From IMG/VR virus record IMGVR_UViG_3300046001_000987, positions 1 to 37,556 of that record: a DNA stretch of 37,556 nt; one strand, written 5' to 3'. The stretch comes from a virus. A program made the translations under genes and the position numbers. Positions 16,116-22,215 of the stretch are shown here, piece by piece. The notes beneath the pieces are model-generated. The model did no database searches. It was given only the letters and a program-made list of their open reading frames with translations, and was not told the origin of the DNA. Position 1 is the stretch's first letter; every line of letters starts with the position of its first letter.

Positions 16116-16539
16116 TTACCTTGTGTTCCAGTGTTGGACTTGGTTCGTTGGCGATTACATCAATAACCCGTGACTCCGCTTGGCGCAACGCGCCGATGAT
16201 GCTGATGCGCTGATCGACATCAATGCTGATGGACTGCTTGGCCACCCAGCCGTGTGAGTGCTGGAGGATCGCCAGCGCCGCTTTGGCGTCGCCTTCCTTG
16301 GCTGCCTTGTGCAGGCAGGTGGACATCTCCAGTTCACCGTCGGCCTTGCCCTTAAGCGCCGCCATGTCTGCGATGGGGTCAAGCTCACACAGTTGCCGGT
16401 ATTCTGTTGGCAACATGCCGGAGGCCAGCGCCAATGCGTCGCCTTTGAGGCCGAGCTTGGCGGCTTCGTAGATTTTGTTTAACCGCGCTTCGGTCGCAAC
16501 GATCTTGCGCGGCTCAAATGGAAGGCTGTGGAACGTCAT
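16090..16539 (-). CDS. terS: Terminase small subunit (DNA recognition)
   Basis: A 149-aa helical protein immediately upstream of terL and overlapping it. The segment EARLNKIYEAAKLGLKGDALALASGMLPTEYRQLCELDP fits the N-terminal helix-turn-helix of small terminases, which recognise the pac site. The middle (ALKGKADGELEMSTCLHKAAKEGDAKAALAILQHSHGWVAKQ) forms the oligomerising core. It is the first gene of the leftward late operon and faces the non-coding hub, where its promoter and perhaps pac lie. No strong Shine-Dalgarno precedes the ATG. Confidence 0.88.
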   Translation of the reverse strand: MTFHSLPFEPRKIVATEARLNKIYEAAKLGLKGDALALASGMLPTEYRQLCELDPIADMAALKGKADGELEMSTCLHKAAKEGDAKAALAILQHSHGWVAKQSISIDVDQRISIIGALRQAESRVIDVIANEPSPTLEHKVNAEHHIQR

Positions 16540-16554
16540 GTGCGCGAGTGTAAA

Positions 16555-16572
16555 TCATGTGGGTCATGTGGG
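16555..16572. repeat. Two tandem copies of TCATGTGGG upstream of terS
   Basis: The 9-mer occurs head to tail at 16555-16563 and 16564-16572, next to an AT-rich inverted pair (CAATTTT at 16573-16579 and AAAATTG at 16590-16596). The location 16-33 bp upstream of the terS start suggests a regulatory or leader element for the late operon. The role is not established. Confidence 0.5.
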
Positions 16573-16652
16573 CAATTTTAAAAAATAAAAAAATTGTTCG
16601 TGAAACCTCCGTCACCGTATGGCCCAGGCCGTCGGCCCTACCCCCACCCCCT

Positions 16653-16853
16653 AAGTTAGTAAGCACTTACTTACAGCAGCTAAGTTAGTGAGCACTTACT
16701 TACAGCAGCTAAGTTAGTGTTTACTAACTTGTCAAATTTATATGTTAGTGCGTACTAACTTAAGCGAAGTGAGTGCTCACTAACTTAGCCTCGGGGTTGG
16801 TGTTAGTGGTCACTAACATGGCCATGTGGCCATATGTTAGTGGCCACTAACTT
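16653..16853. promoter_or_regulatory. Array of seven 20-bp palindromes (AAGTTAGT-N4-ACTAACTT)
   Basis: Copies lie at 16653-16672, 16682-16701, 16711-16730, 16742-16761, 16767-16786, 16800-16819 and 16834-16853. Each has two 8-bp inverted half-sites around a 4-bp centre. Copy 3 is perfect and the others carry one to four arm mismatches. Centre-to-centre spacing is 29, 29, 31, 25, 33 and 34 bp, and the first two lie in a 29-bp tandem direct repeat. The design fits sites for a dimeric helix-turn-helix regulator or an initiator (iterons), between divergent terS and early genes. The binding protein is unknown. Confidence 0.9.
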
Positions 16854-16860
16854 ACGTGCG

Positions 16861-17081
16861 TGTGGACATTGTGGACAATGTGGACAACTATTTTGCGATT
16901 GACAGTCCGTCGCTAAACGTGCGTACCAATGAAACCACATTCCACCATATGAAATATGGTATTTTTTTTTTGACCTTTAAAAACCCATTGTCCACATTGT
17001 CCACAATGCCCATTCAATCAGGCCGTGCATGGTTTTCTTGTGGACATCACCCACTATCCACATTTTGGGCACATGTCCACA
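16861..17081. other. Putative replication origin: eight DnaA-box-like 9-mers
   Basis: Copies of TGTGGACAA/TGTGGACAT lie in direct tandem at 16861-16869, 16870-16878 and 16879-16887. In opposite orientation, TTGTCCACA lies in tandem at 16988-16996 and 16997-17005. Further sites are TGTGGACAT (17039-17047), CTATCCACA (17054-17062) and ATGTCCACA (17073-17081). TTGTCCACA differs by one base from the E. coli DnaA box TTATCCACA and equals the actinobacterial form. Bases 16867-16887 and 16988-17008 are a perfect 21-bp inverted repeat. Between them lies a small hairpin (ACCATAT-GAA-ATATGGT, 16944-16960) and a run of ten T, a candidate unwinding element. No protein-coding gene is credible here. Confidence 0.75.
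16944..16971 (+). terminator. AT-rich hairpin with T-run inside the origin-like region
   Basis: ACCATAT, loop GAA, ATATGGT, one A, then ten T. It could act as a weak intrinsic terminator for rightward transcripts or as an easily melted element of the origin. The low stem GC content favours the second reading. Confidence 0.4.
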
Positions 17082-17158
17082 AAGTAGGGTAAACACCTAT
17101 AGATTTATGCAAGTGAATCCCTTACATTAATATCACTGGCCGCGATATTGCAGCCAGG

Positions 17159-17182
17159 CAATCAACTAAACGAAAGTAAGAC
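17159..17182 (+). repeat. Repeated translation leader, copy 1
   Basis: A 24-nt sequence containing AACTAAACGAAAGTAAG is placed directly before the ATG of the first early gene (ATG at 17184). An identical copy precedes the second gene (17419-17442), and a diverged copy (ATCAACTAATCGAAGGGTAA) precedes the third (ATG 18270). GAAAG or GAAGGG acts as the ribosome-binding site. Confidence 0.85.
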
Positions 17183-17183
17183 C

Positions 17184-17387
17184 ATGAACACACTAAACAA
17201 AAGCCAGCAGCGCGACATTGCGAAAATTATCGTTAACAGCGCCGCGCTGGGTGACGACTATTTGGCGCGTGGATTGTCCGCGCTGTACCGCAGCGCGTTA
17301 AAAACAAGCCAGCAAAATACAATTCTCGGCCTAGCCATAATTTACAAAGTCGCGTCAAACCCCGAATTTATCACCGGCCGCCGTTAA
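17184..17387 (+). CDS. Early small protein, unknown (67 aa)
   Basis: MNTLNKSQQRDIAKIIVNSA, then DYLARGLSALYRSALKTSQQNTILGLAIIYKVASNPEFITGRR. A helical, soluble-looking protein and the first gene of the rightward early operon. The ATG at 17184 is chosen because it follows the repeated leader; a TTG 12 codons upstream would read through that leader. No family recognised. First position downstream of the origin hub suggests early, high expression and perhaps a host-takeover or regulatory role (inference). Confidence 0.72.
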   Translation: MNTLNKSQQRDIAKIIVNSAALGDDYLARGLSALYRSALKTSQQNTILGLAIIYKVASNPEFITGRR

Positions 17388-17395
17388 TCAACCCA

Positions 17396-17416
17396 GCGCG
17401 GCCACACCGGCCGCGC
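17396..17416 (+). other. Intergenic GC hairpin, loop ACACC
   Basis: GCGCGGCC, loop ACACC, GGCCGCGC: an 8-bp perfect stem directly before leader copy 2, without a U-tract. A sister hairpin with nearly the same loop lies at 18207-18227. Likely an mRNA stabiliser or processing element, not a terminator. Confidence 0.7.
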
Positions 17417-17418
17417 GT

Positions 17419-17442
17419 CAATCAACTAAACGAAAGTAAGAC
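17419..17442 (+). repeat. Repeated translation leader, copy 2
   Basis: Identical over 24 nt to 17159-17182 and ends immediately before the ATG at 17443. The near absence of other similarity between the two genes suggests a duplicated expression cassette. Confidence 0.85.
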
Positions 17443-18195
17443 ATGACAAAAATTCTAGGATATATCGCATATGAGGGCCCGAGCGTTATCGACGGCGCGC
17501 CTATCGTTGTTATTGTGAATAAGATCAACGGCGATTCTAAAAACGATAAAACCGGCGCGATCGTACAAACCTTTATTATCCGCTCCGATATTGCACCCAT
17601 GGCCGCGCTGCAAAGCGGCGCGGATGAGTCAATATGCGGCGATTGTGAGCACCGGCCAGTACTGGCCAAAAAAACCGGCAAAGTACCTTGTTATGTACAA
17701 GTAGGCAAATCGGTGCAAAGTGTATTCCACGCATACAAGCGCGGCCGGTATGTCAAAGCCGATCCGGCCACAATTGCAAAAGCATTGCAAGGGAAAATCG
17801 TTCGCTTAGGTACTTACGGGGATCCATTCGCCGCGCCTGTAGGCATGTGGTTAAAAATTTTGCGTTATGCAGCCGGTCATCGCGGATATACCCATCAGTG
17901 GCAGCGCGCCGATTTTGACGCGGCCGCCTGGGCTCCGCTTGTTATGGCCAGCGCCGATTCAATCGATCAAGCGGCGCATGCTAATTTGCTCGGCATGCGC
18001 GTTTTTCGCGTGTCGATCGGCGTAGATAAACAAGCGGGCGAAGCGGTATGTCCAGCGAGCGCGGAGGGTAATCGCAAATCGACATGCGCGAAATGTACCC
18101 TTTGCGCGGGCACGTCGATTCAAGCGCGCGATGTAGTTATCGCCGATCATGCGGCCGGACATGCGCGCCGCGTGATAGCTATTGCCACTGCCTAA
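17443..18195 (+). CDS. Cysteine-rich early protein with possible metal/Fe-S site (250 aa)
   Basis: A protein seen in phages of several proteobacteria and provisionally matched from memory to DUF7227. It opens with ILGYIAYEGPSVIDGAPIVVIV, and GAIVQTFIIRSDIAP follows. There is one CGDC pair (about residues 65-68) and a C-terminal cluster CPASAEGNRKSTCAKCTLC with four cysteines. The centre has RLGTYGDPFAAPVGMW and a GHRGYTHQW motif. The paired Cys clusters suggest zinc or iron-sulphur binding, and the GDP and H-x-W motifs could belong to a catalytic pocket. No reaction is known to me. Largest gene of the early operon, with its own hairpin and leader. Confidence 0.85.
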   Translation: MTKILGYIAYEGPSVIDGAPIVVIVNKINGDSKNDKTGAIVQTFIIRSDIAPMAALQSGADESICGDCEHRPVLAKKTGKVPCYVQVGKSVQSVFHAYKRGRYVKADPATIAKALQGKIVRLGTYGDPFAAPVGMWLKILRYAAGHRGYTHQWQRADFDAAAWAPLVMASADSIDQAAHANLLGMRVFRVSIGVDKQAGEAVCPASAEGNRKSTCAKCTLCAGTSIQARDVVIADHAAGHARRVIAIATA

Positions 18196-18206
18196 TATTC
18201 GACTGT

Positions 18207-18227
18207 ATGCGGCCACACTGGCCGCAT
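18207..18227 (+). other. Intergenic GC hairpin, loop ACACT
   Basis: ATGCGGCC, loop ACACT, GGCCGCAT: an 8-bp perfect stem with no U-tract, located between the 250-aa gene and the diverged third leader. It has the same design as 17396-17416. Confidence 0.7.
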
Positions 18228-18269
18228 GCGGGCGCATGTTGCGTCGATCAACTAATCGAAGGGTAAATT

Positions 18270-18479
18270 ATGGATATCGTAGACAAAAACAATCTAGCCA
18301 GCGCGTACGCGGCCGCATGGCTGGCCGTTAAGAATCGGCCCGCGACCGTGACAGTCGATCCGCATGGATGGTTCACCGTTAATAAAGGGCTCGGCAGCCC
18401 CCAGCGCGTACGCGCCAGCGCGTTGATCAAAGGGCTGGCCGTGTTGACTTCGCGCATGGTCGAAGGGGTTGCACGATGA
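18270..18479 (+). CDS. Early small protein, unknown (69 aa)
   Basis: MDIVDKNNLASAYAAAWLAVKNRPATV, then a short beta/turn region (VTVDPHGWFTVNKGL) and a helical C-terminus (RASALIKGLAVLTSRMVEGVAR). GAAGGG upstream of the ATG is a good ribosome-binding site within a diverged copy of the repeated leader. The stop overlaps the next ATG (ATGA), starting a chain of coupled genes. No family recognised. Confidence 0.7.
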   Translation: MDIVDKNNLASAYAAAWLAVKNRPATVTVDPHGWFTVNKGLGSPQRVRASALIKGLAVLTSRMVEGVAR

Positions 18480-18757
18480 TAAAAATTATGCTTGCAAAAT
18501 ACAAGGGTATCGATGCGAAAACCGGTGGCCCGATCCGGCCAGGCGATGAGATAGCCTATGACACGGACACGCGCCGCGCATGGATCACGGACGAAGACGA
18601 ATACCGGCACGCGGAGCCCGAGCCCGAAGAGGTTTATTTAACCCGCGCACGGGGTGCATACGTGTCTCACCTATGGAACAACGGGGGCCGCGAATACTTT
18701 CAAAATAAAAAGGGCCGGTGCATCGACGCGCCATGCTGCGGGTGCTGCAATATATGA
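18476..18757 (+). CDS. Early small protein with C-terminal Cys cluster (93 aa)
   Basis: The N-terminal half (YKGIDAKTGGPIRPGDEIAYDTDTRRAWIT) reads like a small beta-barrel with a KOW/SH3-like GDxI turn. The middle is Glu/Pro-rich (EPEPEEVYL). The end, RCIDAPCCGCCNI, has five cysteines in eleven residues, probably a metal-binding knuckle. Coupled by ATGA at both ends. Function unknown. Confidence 0.72.
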   Translation: MIKIMLAKYKGIDAKTGGPIRPGDEIAYDTDTRRAWITDEDEYRHAEPEPEEVYLTRARGAYVSHLWNNGGREYFQNKKGRCIDAPCCGCCNI

Positions 18758-18885
18758 AAACAATATTTATTCTTAGGACCGGCCAGCGCGTGGCCGTTGA
18801 TCGGTTTATGGCCGGACCGGCTTTGACGCGTGGCTATTGGTGGTGGCGGACCGGACACCGGACATGGTCCGAGGTGCCCGTATGA
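18754..18885 (+). CDS. Very small basic protein (43 aa)
   Basis: MKTIFILRTGQRVAVDRFMA, then GPALTRGYWWWRTGHRTWSEVPV. It starts in an ATGA overlap with the preceding stop and ends in an ATGA overlap with the next start, which is the main evidence that it is translated. Trp/Arg-rich C-terminal half. No family recognised. Confidence 0.6.
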   Translation: MKTIFILRTGQRVAVDRFMAGPALTRGYWWWRTGHRTWSEVPV

Positions 18886-19037
18886 CCTACTACAAAAGCA
18901 AAGCGGCCGCGCAAGCGCTGGCCGATGAATTGACCATGCAAGACCGCGACGCGTGGAGCTATGAGGTGCACGGGAGCCCGCGCGGGTTTTACGTGGTGGT
19001 TTTTGATGCTGACTTTCACTTTTTGGGGATCTTATGA
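18882..19037 (+). CDS. Small conserved-type phage protein (51 aa)
   Basis: MTYYKSKAAAQALADELTMQ, then DRDAWSYEVHGSPRGFYVVVFDADFHFLGIL: an N-terminal helix followed by three beta strands, a compact fold seen in many small phage proteins of unknown role. The ATG at 18882 (ATGA coupling) is preferred over an in-frame start 15 codons upstream. Confidence 0.7.
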   Translation: MTYYKSKAAAQALADELTMQDRDAWSYEVHGSPRGFYVVVFDADFHFLGIL

Positions 19038-19120
19038 CTAAACGACAATTTTTTGACGCGCTGGGCTTTGCGTTTTTTATCGCACTGCCTTTTGTTTTAT
19101 ATTTTTGGGAGCTGACATGA
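19034..19120 (+). CDS. Single-span membrane peptide (28 aa)
   Basis: MTKRQFFDALGFAFFIALPF followed by VLYFWELT: a positively charged start, about 17 hydrophobic residues and a short tail. ATGA overlaps at both ends place it in the coupled chain. It may be a small inner-membrane effector. The translation evidence is architectural only. Confidence 0.5.
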   Translation: MTKRQFFDALGFAFFIALPFVLYFWELT

Positions 19121-19401
19121 AAACTATCACATTGGGGAAAACCCGTTACACCGTGCGCGACGGCCGCGACGACATTATGGCCGCGCATGCAAAGTGCACC
19201 GGCAAGCATAAGGTTGTAAAGTCTAAAGGGGCCGAAAAACGGTTCTACCCTTTGTACTGGGCCGAGACGTCAACGGCCGATTATGTGGCCGCATATGAAA
19301 AGTTGAATTCTAAAATTATGCCTTGGGACTGGCAGCCACTGCGGGCCGAGCCCTGCCTGCTACCCGTGGGCGAAGATAGCATGTGGGAGGTGGCCGAATG
19401 A
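19117..19401 (+). CDS. Early protein, unknown (94 aa)
   Basis: Starts MKTITLGKTRYTVRDGRDDIMAAHAKCTGKHKVVKSKGAEKRF, a basic N-terminal half with two or three beta strands, then YPLYWAETSTADYVAAYEKLNSK and an acidic end. The ATG at 19117 is chosen for its ATGA overlap; a TTG four codons upstream is possible. No recognised family. Confidence 0.7.
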   Translation: MKTITLGKTRYTVRDGRDDIMAAHAKCTGKHKVVKSKGAEKRFYPLYWAETSTADYVAAYEKLNSKIMPWDWQPLRAEPCLLPVGEDSMWEVAE

Positions 19402-19616
19402 ACCCGATTTTTGCTCAGGCGCTGGCCCCTTGGACGCCGCCACCCACACCCACACCGACTGACCTTGTGACACGGGCGCTGATTATGGGGCTCACTGCGC
19501 CGGACGCCGCACGGGCGCAAGAATGCGCCGATCTGGCCGAGCACTGGGCGCAAGGGCTCACGGAGGCCGAGGTTGAAGCCTGCAAAGCGGAGGCGATGCA
19601 ATATGAACCTAAGTGA
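19398..19616 (+). CDS. Early protein, unknown (72 aa)
   Basis: MNPIFAQALAPWTPPPTPTPTDLVTRALIMGLTAPDAARAQECADLAEHWAQGLTEAEVEACKAEAMQYEPK: a proline-rich linker followed by an acidic helical hairpin. ATGA-coupled to the upstream gene and overlapping the next gene by 14 nt. Probably a protein-interaction module (inference). Confidence 0.68.
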   Translation: MNPIFAQALAPWTPPPTPTPTDLVTRALIMGLTAPDAARAQECADLAEHWAQGLTEAEVEACKAEAMQYEPK

Positions 19617-19824
19617 CTTTTGCGCGATACCGCGCACAATGGCCGAAATAGAAAATGAGGGGTTTACCCGACACCAAGTCTACGGCGCGGTCAAGCGCGG
19701 CGAGTTGGTCAACCAGAACCGCAAAGACGCATGGGGGCGCATTAGGCGCGGGGCGGGTTTGTTTACTGTTGCCGCCCCTGCCCCTACGTACGATGCCGCC
19801 GCGCTGGTGGATGTATGGCGGTGA
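19603..19824 (+). CDS. Small helix-turn-helix-like protein (73 aa)
   Basis: Residues about 11-35 (RTMAEIENEGFTRHQVYGAVKRGELVNQNRK) fit a winged or MerR-like helix-turn-helix, with the recognition helix around TRHQVYGAVKRGEL. The C-terminus (GLFTVAAPAPTYDAAALVDVWR) is a short beta hairpin plus tail. It is the last well supported gene of the rightward early operon. It is a candidate for the factor that binds the palindromic array at 16653-16853, though a 73-aa protein would have to dimerise (inference). Confidence 0.72.
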   Translation: MNLSDFCAIPRTMAEIENEGFTRHQVYGAVKRGELVNQNRKDAWGRIRRGAGLFTVAAPAPTYDAAALVDVWR

Positions 19825-19874
19825 TATGCGCGGCCATCATTGCCGCTATACTTGCCGTGCTGCTGAATTTGTAG
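19815..19874 (+). CDS. Possible 19-aa hydrophobic peptide
   Basis: MAVICAAIIAAILAVLLNL followed by TAG, overlapping the preceding gene by 10 nt and ending 19 nt before the operon terminator. Almost entirely hydrophobic, so it could be a single-span membrane peptide. It has no clear ribosome-binding site and may be chance. Confidence 0.3.
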   Translation: MAVICAAIIAAILAVLLNL

Positions 19875-19893
19875 CAGTTGCCTAGAACTTAAC

Positions 19894-19921
19894 AGGGCCC
19901 CATAATCGGGGCCCTTTTTTT
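19894..19921 (+). terminator. Strong rho-independent terminator of the early operon
   Basis: AGGGCCCC (19894-19901), loop ATAATC, GGGGCCCT (19908-19915), then seven T. A perfect 8-bp GC-rich stem with a U-tract, in the gap between the rightward operon and the converging leftward replication genes. Confidence 0.95.
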
Positions 19922-19950
19922 ATGTCGACGCCGTAGGCGGCGGCATTGCC

Positions 19951-22215
19951 TTATGCCTCTACCATGCGGCGAAGGTCTGACTTCGACATGTCCACCATGT
20001 CACGGACGCAAAAAACGTGCTTTTTGCTGTCATAGTCGCGCGACTTGATTCGGCCCATGTCCACCCATCCGGCCTCCTTAAGTGCATGTAAGAGCGCGGC
20101 CTGCACAATCTTGGTGCCTGCGGGAGCCTGGCCCTGCAAACGGTCGCAGATGGCATGGAACGGGCCACCGACCACGCCACGGGAGAACTCGCCAGCGCGG
20201 CGGCGCATAAGGTCAACCAAAAACGACTCGGCGGTGCTCATGCCGTGCTCGACCATAATGGCCTTGGCCTCAGTCATTGGGGGCGGCGCGGTCGGGTTCC
20301 ACGCTGACACGTCACGGGTGTGCAAGTAGTTGGCGACGGCCTCAAAGCCGCCACGGTGCTGATACCAATTCCACAAGCTCACCGCCTGAGCCTCTGGCAG
20401 TTTAGATGCCTCGGCCCAGATCACGAACCACCGGCGGTCTTCGCTGGGAATACTGATCGCCACGCGCTCATTACTGAACGCGACCACGAAAACGCGGTTC
20501 AGGGCGTAGTAGGGGTGCAAACCCTTACGGTTGACCATCAGGTATTCAGGGGGCGCTGCAATAATGGGCTTTAGGTGGTTTTCCAATGCGCGGCGGTCTT
20601 TGGCCTCTGCTTGGCGTAGCTCGGCGATTTCCATCACTTCGCATTCCAACCCGTAGCCCCACTGGGATGTCAGGTCTTCGTTTTTGATGATGCTGCAATT
20701 GATCTTGGCGCGGCCACCAATGGCCCAAAAGAAGGGGGCGAAAAGGGTGTCTTTGCCCGACCCGTGATTGCCACCCATTAGGATGGCGTGGTTGATCTTG
20801 TGTGTGGGGAACTGCACTTTATGGGCCAAGGCGTTCAACAGGTGCTCACGCTCGAACTGCTCAGGAACCATGCGCTCGACGTGCGCCAGCCACGGGCTGA
20901 CGTCACCGGCCACCGGCTGCGGGCGGGCATCGCGCCAACGGTTGCCGTAGACCATGCCGTCACGGGCGACCAAGACCGACTCACCGGCGGCGTAGGTGAC
21001 ACCGACCAAAGCCTTGGCTCCCTTGGCTTGGCGTAGCTCGTCAAACGACGTGGCGGCTTCAATCCGACGTTTCACATTGTGAACTGACTTGCAATCGATG
21101 TGCCGGAATAAGGCGTTGAATGTGTACCGACTGATCTCGCGGCGGTCTTGCATGTCGAAGAACGCGTCATCTACCTGTATGTACGCAAACCGGCCCCACC
21201 ACTCGTTCTTCTCAATGCGGCCAAGCTCTTTACGCTCGACTTCGGCGATGACAGCGGCGGCGGCGTCGGGGTACTCAGGCGTAGGGGTCAGTTTGGACAA
21301 TGCCGAGTCCATGGCCTGCGCGAGCAATTCCTCACGCAAGCCTGGGGTGTGCGCTGGGCCACCATTGTCGGTGACCCACTGCAAGAACATGCGCGAATCA
21401 AAGTCCACGCAGTGCGAATGCAGGCAACAATATGCGCGGTTGGCGGGCATGTACCGGCCTTCGGGGTTGCCGTCGGTGTGCTCTGCACCGTTGGGACAGA
21501 TCACGCCTGCCCAGCCCTCGCCGTTGGGTTTGGACAGTAGCAGACCCTGCTCGGACAGCCACGCCATCACGTCATCAGCGCCGTCGTCGGACAAGCGGAT
21601 CGGGCGCAAGGTGAGTGAGTCGGCCTCGACCGGCGTCACGCCAAGGGCATCACATATTTGTTGTAGGGTGAACTCACGGTCGGGGTGGAACTCGACCAAG
21701 CGCGACGCAAAATTGTTGCGGTCGGGCTTCAAGTTGACCGAGCCAGGCAGTCGGAAGTTGCGAACGGGGTTGCAGGCCCCAGGGTCGGTGTAGCCTGCGT
21801 CGGCAATGGCGCGGATCGCTGCGCTGAACTCAGCCTTAGTCGGTTGGTCAACGAAGGCGTAGCCCCACTGGAATGAACCCTCAGACGTTTCCATGATCCA
21901 CGTCGGCTCAATCGGGGGCGTCTTGGATTTGGTGCCAATATCGTCCAGCATCATCACAAGGATGTACTCGCAATTGGCTGCGGACGCTGACACGCGGCCA
22001 TCAACGAAACGGTCAACAATGAAGCTGGCGGTGTTGCCGTACCACGCTTGGCCAGCCTTGACGCCTTTGCTGGGTAGGTGCGCTGGCCATGTGCACTTGA
22101 CTGCGCCGTCAGCATGTAGCTGGATCGCGCCGTCTTTCAGTTGTGGTTTTTGGTGCACAATAAGTGCTGTCTCGCCAGTTGGTGCGAGATTTGTGATAAA
22201 GTCCAGAAATTCCAA
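19951..22215 (-). CDS. Phage primase-helicase (prim-pol plus DUF5906-type SF3 helicase)
   Basis: About 754 aa in a phage primase-helicase arrangement. The N-terminal third carries a primase-like acidic motif (EYILVMMLDDIG) and RNFRLPGSVNLKP, typical of plasmid or phage prim-pol proteins. Near residues 240-270 a Zn-ribbon-like set is visible (CPNGAEH, then CCLHSHC). The C-terminal domain has Walker A ILMGGNHGSGKD around residue 480-490 and a GYGLECEVMEIAELRQAEAK region typical of the SF3/DUF5906 group. The start is taken as TTG at 22215 because GGGAG lies 7 nt upstream; an in-frame TTG at 22233 would start in a hairpin. It should unwind and prime the origin. Confidence 0.87.
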   Translation of the reverse strand: MEFLDFITNLAPTGETALIVHQKPQLKDGAIQLHADGAVKCTWPAHLPSKGVKAGQAWYGNTASFIVDRFVDGRVSASAANCEYILVMMLDDIGTKSKTPPIEPTWIMETSEGSFQWGYAFVDQPTKAEFSAAIRAIADAGYTDPGACNPVRNFRLPGSVNLKPDRNNFASRLVEFHPDREFTLQQICDALGVTPVEADSLTLRPIRLSDDGADDVMAWLSEQGLLLSKPNGEGWAGVICPNGAEHTDGNPEGRYMPANRAYCCLHSHCVDFDSRMFLQWVTDNGGPAHTPGLREELLAQAMDSALSKLTPTPEYPDAAAAVIAEVERKELGRIEKNEWWGRFAYIQVDDAFFDMQDRREISRYTFNALFRHIDCKSVHNVKRRIEAATSFDELRQAKGAKALVGVTYAAGESVLVARDGMVYGNRWRDARPQPVAGDVSPWLAHVERMVPEQFEREHLLNALAHKVQFPTHKINHAILMGGNHGSGKDTLFAPFFWAIGGRAKINCSIIKNEDLTSQWGYGLECEVMEIAELRQAEAKDRRALENHLKPIIAAPPEYLMVNRKGLHPYYALNRVFVVAFSNERVAISIPSEDRRWFVIWAEASKLPEAQAVSLWNWYQHRGGFEAVANYLHTRDVSAWNPTAPPPMTEAKAIMVEHGMSTAESFLVDLMRRRAGEFSRGVVGGPFHAICDRLQGQAPAGTKIVQAALLHALKEAGWVDMGRIKSRDYDSKKHVFCVRDMVDMSKSDLRRMVEA

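Follow-up and report, generated by a model that had tools for sequence, protein, structure and literature searches.

Locus and Gene Content

The window, that is, the whole 37,556-nucleotide stretch of viral DNA analysed here (an IMG/VR record), carries genes for a portal, terminase, DNA polymerase, primase, exonuclease and helicase. Our subject is the second gene in a plus-strand run of small genes, an ORF with an ATG start encoding 250 amino acids; its product is hereafter the "target protein" and its homologues the "target family". The 149-aa ORF beside the large terminase gene is probably the small terminase, as judged from its position and by analogy with phage DSL-LC05. The main features of the locus are as follows:

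16540..19950, plus strand, cluster of small genes bounded by two minus-strand genes, the putative small terminase (ending at 16539) and the primase (starting at 19951)
17396..17416, plus strand, GC-rich hairpin without T-run, 5' of the target CDS (-18.8 kcal/mol, z -4.3)
17421..17439, plus strand, leader ATCAACTAAACGAAAGTAA directly before the target ATG (copies at 17161-17179 and, with 4 mismatches, at 18247-18265)
17443..18195, plus strand, target CDS, a seven-cysteine protein of PHROG 2554 (from ORF, translation, PHROG and homologue matches)

The hairpin lacks a T-run and is thus not a terminator. The copies of the AATCAACTAAACGAAAGTAA leader (at 17161, and at 18247 with 4 mismatches) are each preceded by a hairpin as well, so that one module, a hairpin and then a AATCAACTAAACGAAAGTAA-like leader, stands before three successive genes (17128-17183, 17388-17442 and 18196-18269), and a similar module occurs in close relatives. 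The suggestion that the target gene has its own leader and hairpin, indicative of high expression, is therefore not supported, the module being common to three genes, and no strong private promoter for the gene was found in the window. A TTGACA-N16-18-TACA(A/T/C)T arrangement lies 34-65 bp before the gene in eight of 80 close relatives, vs. 0.6% of random stretches.

Other repeats lie nearby. The gap between the small terminase gene and the plus-strand run holds at least seven palindromic repeats of the AAGTTAGTnnnnACTAACTTA type (16651-16859; 17-23 bp, spacing mostly 25-34), an array that may be operator- or origin-like, and adjoining it are TGTGGACAttGTGGACAA repeats arranged as 25-bp inverted arms, 100 bp apart (16861-17012). 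Downstream of the target gene, a 93-aa gene (18476-18757) ends in APCCGCCNI. The last 16-30 residues of its product match both phrog_2656 and phrog_5664, which corresponds to a common Cys-rich tail.

A Widespread Family with Seven Invariant Cysteines

The target protein contains seven cysteines in total (C65, C68, C83, C203, C215, C218 and C221). The CGDC (C65, C68) and C-terminal four-cysteine cluster of the original prediction are both present in the 250-aa ORF, as are GTYGDPFAAP (residues 123-132) and GHRGYTHQW (145-153). Combining alignment, profile comparison and structure model, the following elements can be distinguished:

17635..17691, plus strand, N-terminal three-Cys group C65-x2-C68-x14-C83-Y, after strand 1 (Cys invariant in the alignment; model)
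17809..17826, plus strand, GTYGDP (residues 123-128), end of strand 2 (alignment, model)
17884..17895, plus strand, GYTH (148-151), strand 3, with H151 invariant (alignment, profile comparison)
17944..17958, plus strand, MASAD (168-172), strand 4, with S170 invariant (alignment, model)
18049..18105, plus strand, C-terminal group of four Cys, C203-P...C215-x2-C218-x2-C221, lying between strands 5 and 6 and a candidate for an auxiliary cluster (alignment, model)
18148..18150, plus strand, H236, nearly invariant, end of strand 6 (alignment)

A target-family homologue was detected by tblastn in 148 phage records (32-58% identity among the matches listed), whose hosts include Mycobacterium, Gordonia, Klebsiella, Proteus, Microcystis, Roseobacter, Caulobacter and Bradyrhizobium, and many further members came from scans of IMG/VR and GTDB. 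Conservation was assessed on 71 diverse sequences (30-82% identity) from phages of many host phyla. All seven cysteine columns are invariant in this alignment, so this check does not speak against a metal site; also invariant are S14, N34, K36, T37, Q42, G66, Y84, R121, G123, Y125, G126, P132, H151, S170 and G223, with D127, P128 and H236 nearly so. Every one of the 181 near-full-length members, which span 37 clades, has both Cys motifs, the gap between the second and third Cys ranging from 6 to 24 residues. Given the 148 records and the invariant Cys columns, the target family is real rather than a product of chance; it is widespread in phages and uncharacterised, Pfam, PHROGs and NCBIfam giving no function, in line with what had been supposed from the DNA.

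Some members stand apart. LUZ100 gp04, from a Pseudomonas phage, is a truncated remnant from which the Cys groups are missing, only the N-terminal 50 residues being left. In filamentous cyanobacteria (Calothrix, Richelia, Nostocaceae), the family copy sits within a conserved block of small unknown genes, and no obvious phage structural genes were seen near these copies. The genome of Calothrix sp. NIES-4101 encodes three paralogues, each cut at its 5' end by a near-identical unit which we take, from our own reading of the sequences, to be TnsB/TnsC/TniQ-like and which ends 140-350 bp upstream, as if a Tn7-like element had inserted repeatedly or in a targeted way. As this transposon unit cuts the 5' end of the three Calothrix copies, we rejected TnsB/TnsC/TniQ as a partner system. 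In neighbourhoods across clades, mainly an integrase, a terminase and a small regulator-like gene recur, hence no partner gene emerges for the target family.

Relation to DUF7227, GP88 and DUF5131

The target protein matches PHROG 2554, a group of unknown function, over residues 5-239 (E 3.1e-63). This group takes in both the target family and DUF7227, the latter illustrated by gene 1 of P-SSP7 (E 2e-64 against PHROG 2554). Against the Pfam DUF7227 model itself (PF23872), the target protein scores 25.3 bits (E 1.4e-5), below the cut-off of 27, and one target relative exceeds it with 29.6 bits. Profile-profile comparison (hhalign) of the target family with DUF7227 gave 91% (E 9.8e-7, 178 columns) with the Cys columns aligned, which indicates whole-domain homology, and on this sequence comparison we consider the target family firmly homologous to DUF7227. 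The two share PHROG 2554, full-length homology, the C-terminal CP...CxxCxxC, a similar HG ending and, in the lineage of the window, the same genomic place, but the target begins with a further beta hairpin and its N-terminal cysteines are spaced more widely (CX2CX14C vs. CX3CX6C in DUF7227).

A second link leads to GP88 (PF17338), the mycobacteriophage D29/Trixie type. DUF7227 and GP88 are collinear across 192 columns (hhalign 61%, E 8e-5), PHROG 2554 matches GP88 proteins at E 2e-6 to 2e-5, and the merged profile of target family and DUF7227 reaches GP88 at E 0.001. The direct comparison of target family and GP88 gave E 0.005 over 183 columns, reversed target-profile controls being at 0.07 or worse; a narrow GP88 subset gave no full-length match to the target family, whereas a broader GP88 set matched. 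No GP88 Pfam match was obtained for the target protein or for G000, and TM4 gp88 was rejected as a member of the GP88 family. GP88 shares with the target the collinear motifs, the seven-Cys plan and the predicted topology, but its N-terminal cysteines are spaced CX6CX3C, and the C-terminal CxxCxxC is missing from some of its members, such as Kampy gp87. A relation of the target family to GP88 through DUF7227 is thus supported by these profiles, if more weakly than that to DUF7227.

More distantly, the GP88 profile detects DUF5131 proteins (PF07505) at E 9e-4, while profile comparison of the target family with DUF5131 gave no direct link above controls. DUF5131, the Gp37/Gp68 three-Cys protein whose neighbour is the three-Cys-motif partner TcmP, resembles the target in a three-Cys motif ending CYA and in S-D, LTKR and SVE motifs, but is without the C-terminal CxxCxxC. 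Across these families the N-terminal three-Cys stretch, ending C-Y, takes the forms CX2CX14C, CX3CX6C, CX6CX3C and CX6CX2C, and is followed by a common plan of G-D or S-D, YT(H/R) or LTKR, S-x-D/E/N and then CP...CxxCxxC (the last not in DUF5131); GYTH of the target protein matches the YTH/YTR of DUF7227 and GP88. On these motifs and profiles, DUF5131 probably belongs to the same superfamily. It also matches the NCBIfam model "radical SAM mobile pair protein A" (E 7e-28), far under the equivalog cut-off.

Beyond these families the searches gave little. No NCBIfam profile relative of the target protein was found, the PADLOC anti-phage defence profiles gave no match to it and chance-level ones to its relatives, and PDB sequences held no relatives of the target protein, its profile, GP88 or DUF5131 (weak rows being due to chance). 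We found no literature text on DUF7227 or phrog_2554.

Predicted Fold and the Radical SAM Question

An AlphaFold2 model of the target protein, built from the 71-row alignment, is of high confidence (pLDDT 92.8, pTM 0.90) and shows a partial barrel of six strands, in which strand 1 is followed by the first Cys group. From the N-terminus, it consists of a beta hairpin, a strand (41-47), the three-Cys stretch, a helix (87-99), a strand ending in GTYGDP (119-125), a helix (133-139), a strand with YTH (145-150), a strand with MASAD (168-171), a helix (174-182), a strand (187-191), the four-Cys stretch, a strand (230-234), H236 and a last helix. This order of elements would correspond to a radical SAM partial barrel with an auxiliary cluster, in which GTYGDP may occupy the position of the GGE motif and MASAD, as the strand-4 S-x-D, that of the SAM-ribose motif. 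Judged by topology, the likeness to radical SAM enzymes (QueE, spore photoproduct lyase, and SPASM/twitch proteins such as SpeY and PqqE) would thus include the partial barrel, the Cys group after strand 1, G-D/E ending strand 2, the S-x-D of strand 4 and an extra Cys cluster behind the barrel.

Structural searches with the target model returned no clear non-metal fold, the other result that could have spoken against the metal reading. Foldseek against the PDB gave nothing under E 0.001 (best radical SAM row E 0.44), and its ferulic acid esterase rows were rejected (TM 0.19). With VIA-align, six of the nine best rows were radical SAM enzymes (SpeY, MgmA, sactipeptide synthase, anSME, SkfB and GDGT-MAS), but at an insignificant Z of about 3. 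Against BFVD, the best named match was DUF7227 (E 1e-6), then a GP88 protein (E 0.016, probability 0.63). The GP88 model (pLDDT 82.7) has the same predicted topology as the target, and its nine best VIA rows in the PDB were all radical SAM, led by QueE (Z 8.2, 164 aligned, 3.9 A) and including spore photoproduct lyase (7.5-7.7), ChlB (7.5) and PqqE (7.2). A Z of about 8 is near background for this model, the tenth row being a GH18 chitinase at 7.0, and Foldseek ranked ordinary TIM barrels first, none significant. These matches are suggestive of a radical SAM fold in the GP88/target superfamily, not decisive.

In contrast to radical SAM enzymes, the target protein is without the canonical CX3CX2C, having CX2CX14C in its place, it has no Pfam or NCBIfam match to Radical_SAM (PF04055), and its direct fold score is weak; hhalign of the target family against a radical SAM alignment did not rise above reversed controls. 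Since canonical motif and profile are both lacking, the target protein is not a certified member of the radical SAM enzymes. The variable spacing CX2CX6-24C is likewise unusual for a radical SAM cluster loop and counts against that reading.

Exchange of Three Homologous Families at One Genomic Place

Within the phage collection, DSL-LC05 alone shows near similarity to the window at the DNA level (amino acid identity of 75% for the portal and 67% for the large terminase), and its plus-strand run between terminase and primase carries a DUF7227 gene, not a member of the target family. The terminase-primase interval is present in 39 IMG/VR contigs whose terminase shares 85% or more identity with that of the window; it is occupied by the target family in nine, DUF7227 in 11, GP88 in one and none of these in 18, and in no case by two together. 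The occupant lies 1.0-1.8 kb from the terminase, for target family and DUF7227 alike. In one pair of contigs (L384 with the target family, L378 with DUF7227), the terminases are 99% identical and the DNA aligns on both flanks of the gene, but not inside.

A comparable exchange is seen in cluster A mycobacteriophages, where GP88 has the same place as the target family, near the right end: Trixie gp93 (GP88) and Odin gp92 (target family) have matching genes on either side (Trixie 94 and Odin 96 on one flank, Trixie 90, 89, 88, 86, 85 and 84 and Odin 90, 91, 88, 85, 84 and 83 on the opposite one). No GP88 over cut-off was detected in 20 target-family records (window, phages and viral contigs). 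The target family, DUF7227 and GP88 are thus interchangeable at one genomic place. This swap among three homologous families is new and is our most informative new result; the original prediction held neither it nor the radical-SAM-like plan nor the relation to DUF7227, GP88 and DUF5131. The occupancy by one of the three, never two, suggests a shared early-infection job, and the 18 of 39 intervals without the gene suggest that it is accessory.

The sharing of this place could instead reflect a mere recombination hot spot for any early gene, which would be silent on function and compatible with every chemistry discussed below. Early regions are mosaic, nearly half of the intervals hold none of the three families, and the absence of overlap has a chance of 0.03 under independence, with relatedness ignored. 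Set against this, the three families are mutually homologous with the same seven-Cys plan, the exchange of GP88 and target family recurs at one place in unrelated mycobacteriophages, and the 20 target-family records lack GP88. We consider a simple hot spot rather unlikely.

Timing of Expression

Early action had been proposed from the sequence; it is favored by gene position and by analogy with relatives. The target-family gene lies at or near the genome end, in an early-type region, in S2B, CRP-403, Odin, Bongo, Anon and RhynO, and gene 1 of P-SSP7 is a DUF7227 gene. Kampy gp87 is a GP88 protein, and expression in Kampy at 5 min is largely of genes 82-88 only (PMC4626039), which suggests by analogy that the target gene may also act early. 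In L5, the early lytic promoter Pleft lies at the right end, directly before gene 89 (PMC5712189). The main text of a paper on mycobacteriophage toxicity (PMC7474061) names no relevant phage beyond one D29 citation.

Possible Function

The metal or Fe-S enzyme first proposed is still the best reading, given the invariant cysteines and the lack of a clear non-metal fold; the iron and the chemistry themselves we infer. We put at about even the chance that the target protein is a divergent radical-SAM-like Fe-S enzyme, accessory and of the early region. As such, it would form a partial (beta/alpha)6 barrel in which strand 1 is followed by a metal site of three cysteines and strand 5 by a site of four, the two most likely holding two [4Fe-4S] clusters, the first of them open on one iron. 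As a highly divergent radical SAM relative, the protein would most likely use this cluster and S-adenosylmethionine to modify a host or phage molecule soon after entry, the substrate being perhaps a nucleic acid.

The strongest competing explanation is a zinc protein, in which the Cys groups would bind structural Zn and the barrel would act as a non-redox binder or inhibitor of a host target. The second Cys group resembles a zinc-binding knot, the free gap between the second and third N-terminal cysteines is like that of structural sites, early phage proteins are often inhibitors, and the radical SAM fold matches of the target model are weak. However, a CxxCxxC motif more typically marks [4Fe-4S] sites than Zn sites, the invariant GxYGDP, YTH and SxD together with H236 lie at strand ends, as active-site residues do, and the related DUF5131 family matches a model named for radical SAM; zinc thus appears a minority possibility, if a serious one. 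Least probable is an Fe-S protein that performs no SAM chemistry and instead senses redox state or oxygen, or carries electrons, to switch early phage or host functions, as the early genomic region and the C-terminal four-Cys group, which we take to be ferredoxin-like, might suggest, but the conserved non-Cys residues at strand ends point to a substrate site and no DNA-binding domain is apparent in the model.

Returning to the radical-SAM-like reading, it is tempting to speculate, if with rather less confidence than for the protein itself, that the target family, DUF7227 and GP88 form, together with their bacterial cousin DUF5131, one divergent radical-SAM-like superfamily, swapped at one early-gene place among phages of many host phyla as an early take-over or counter-defence enzyme in the version that fits the host. 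Hundreds of phages with sequenced genomes, among them P-SSP7, relatives of D29 and many Pseudomonas phages, encode a protein of the superfamily, often in an early or terminal region and in all cases labelled hypothetical. One swapping superfamily of seven-Cys barrels would replace three unknown families with a single testable question (Fe-S? SAM? which substrate?), and with model phages in which to ask it.
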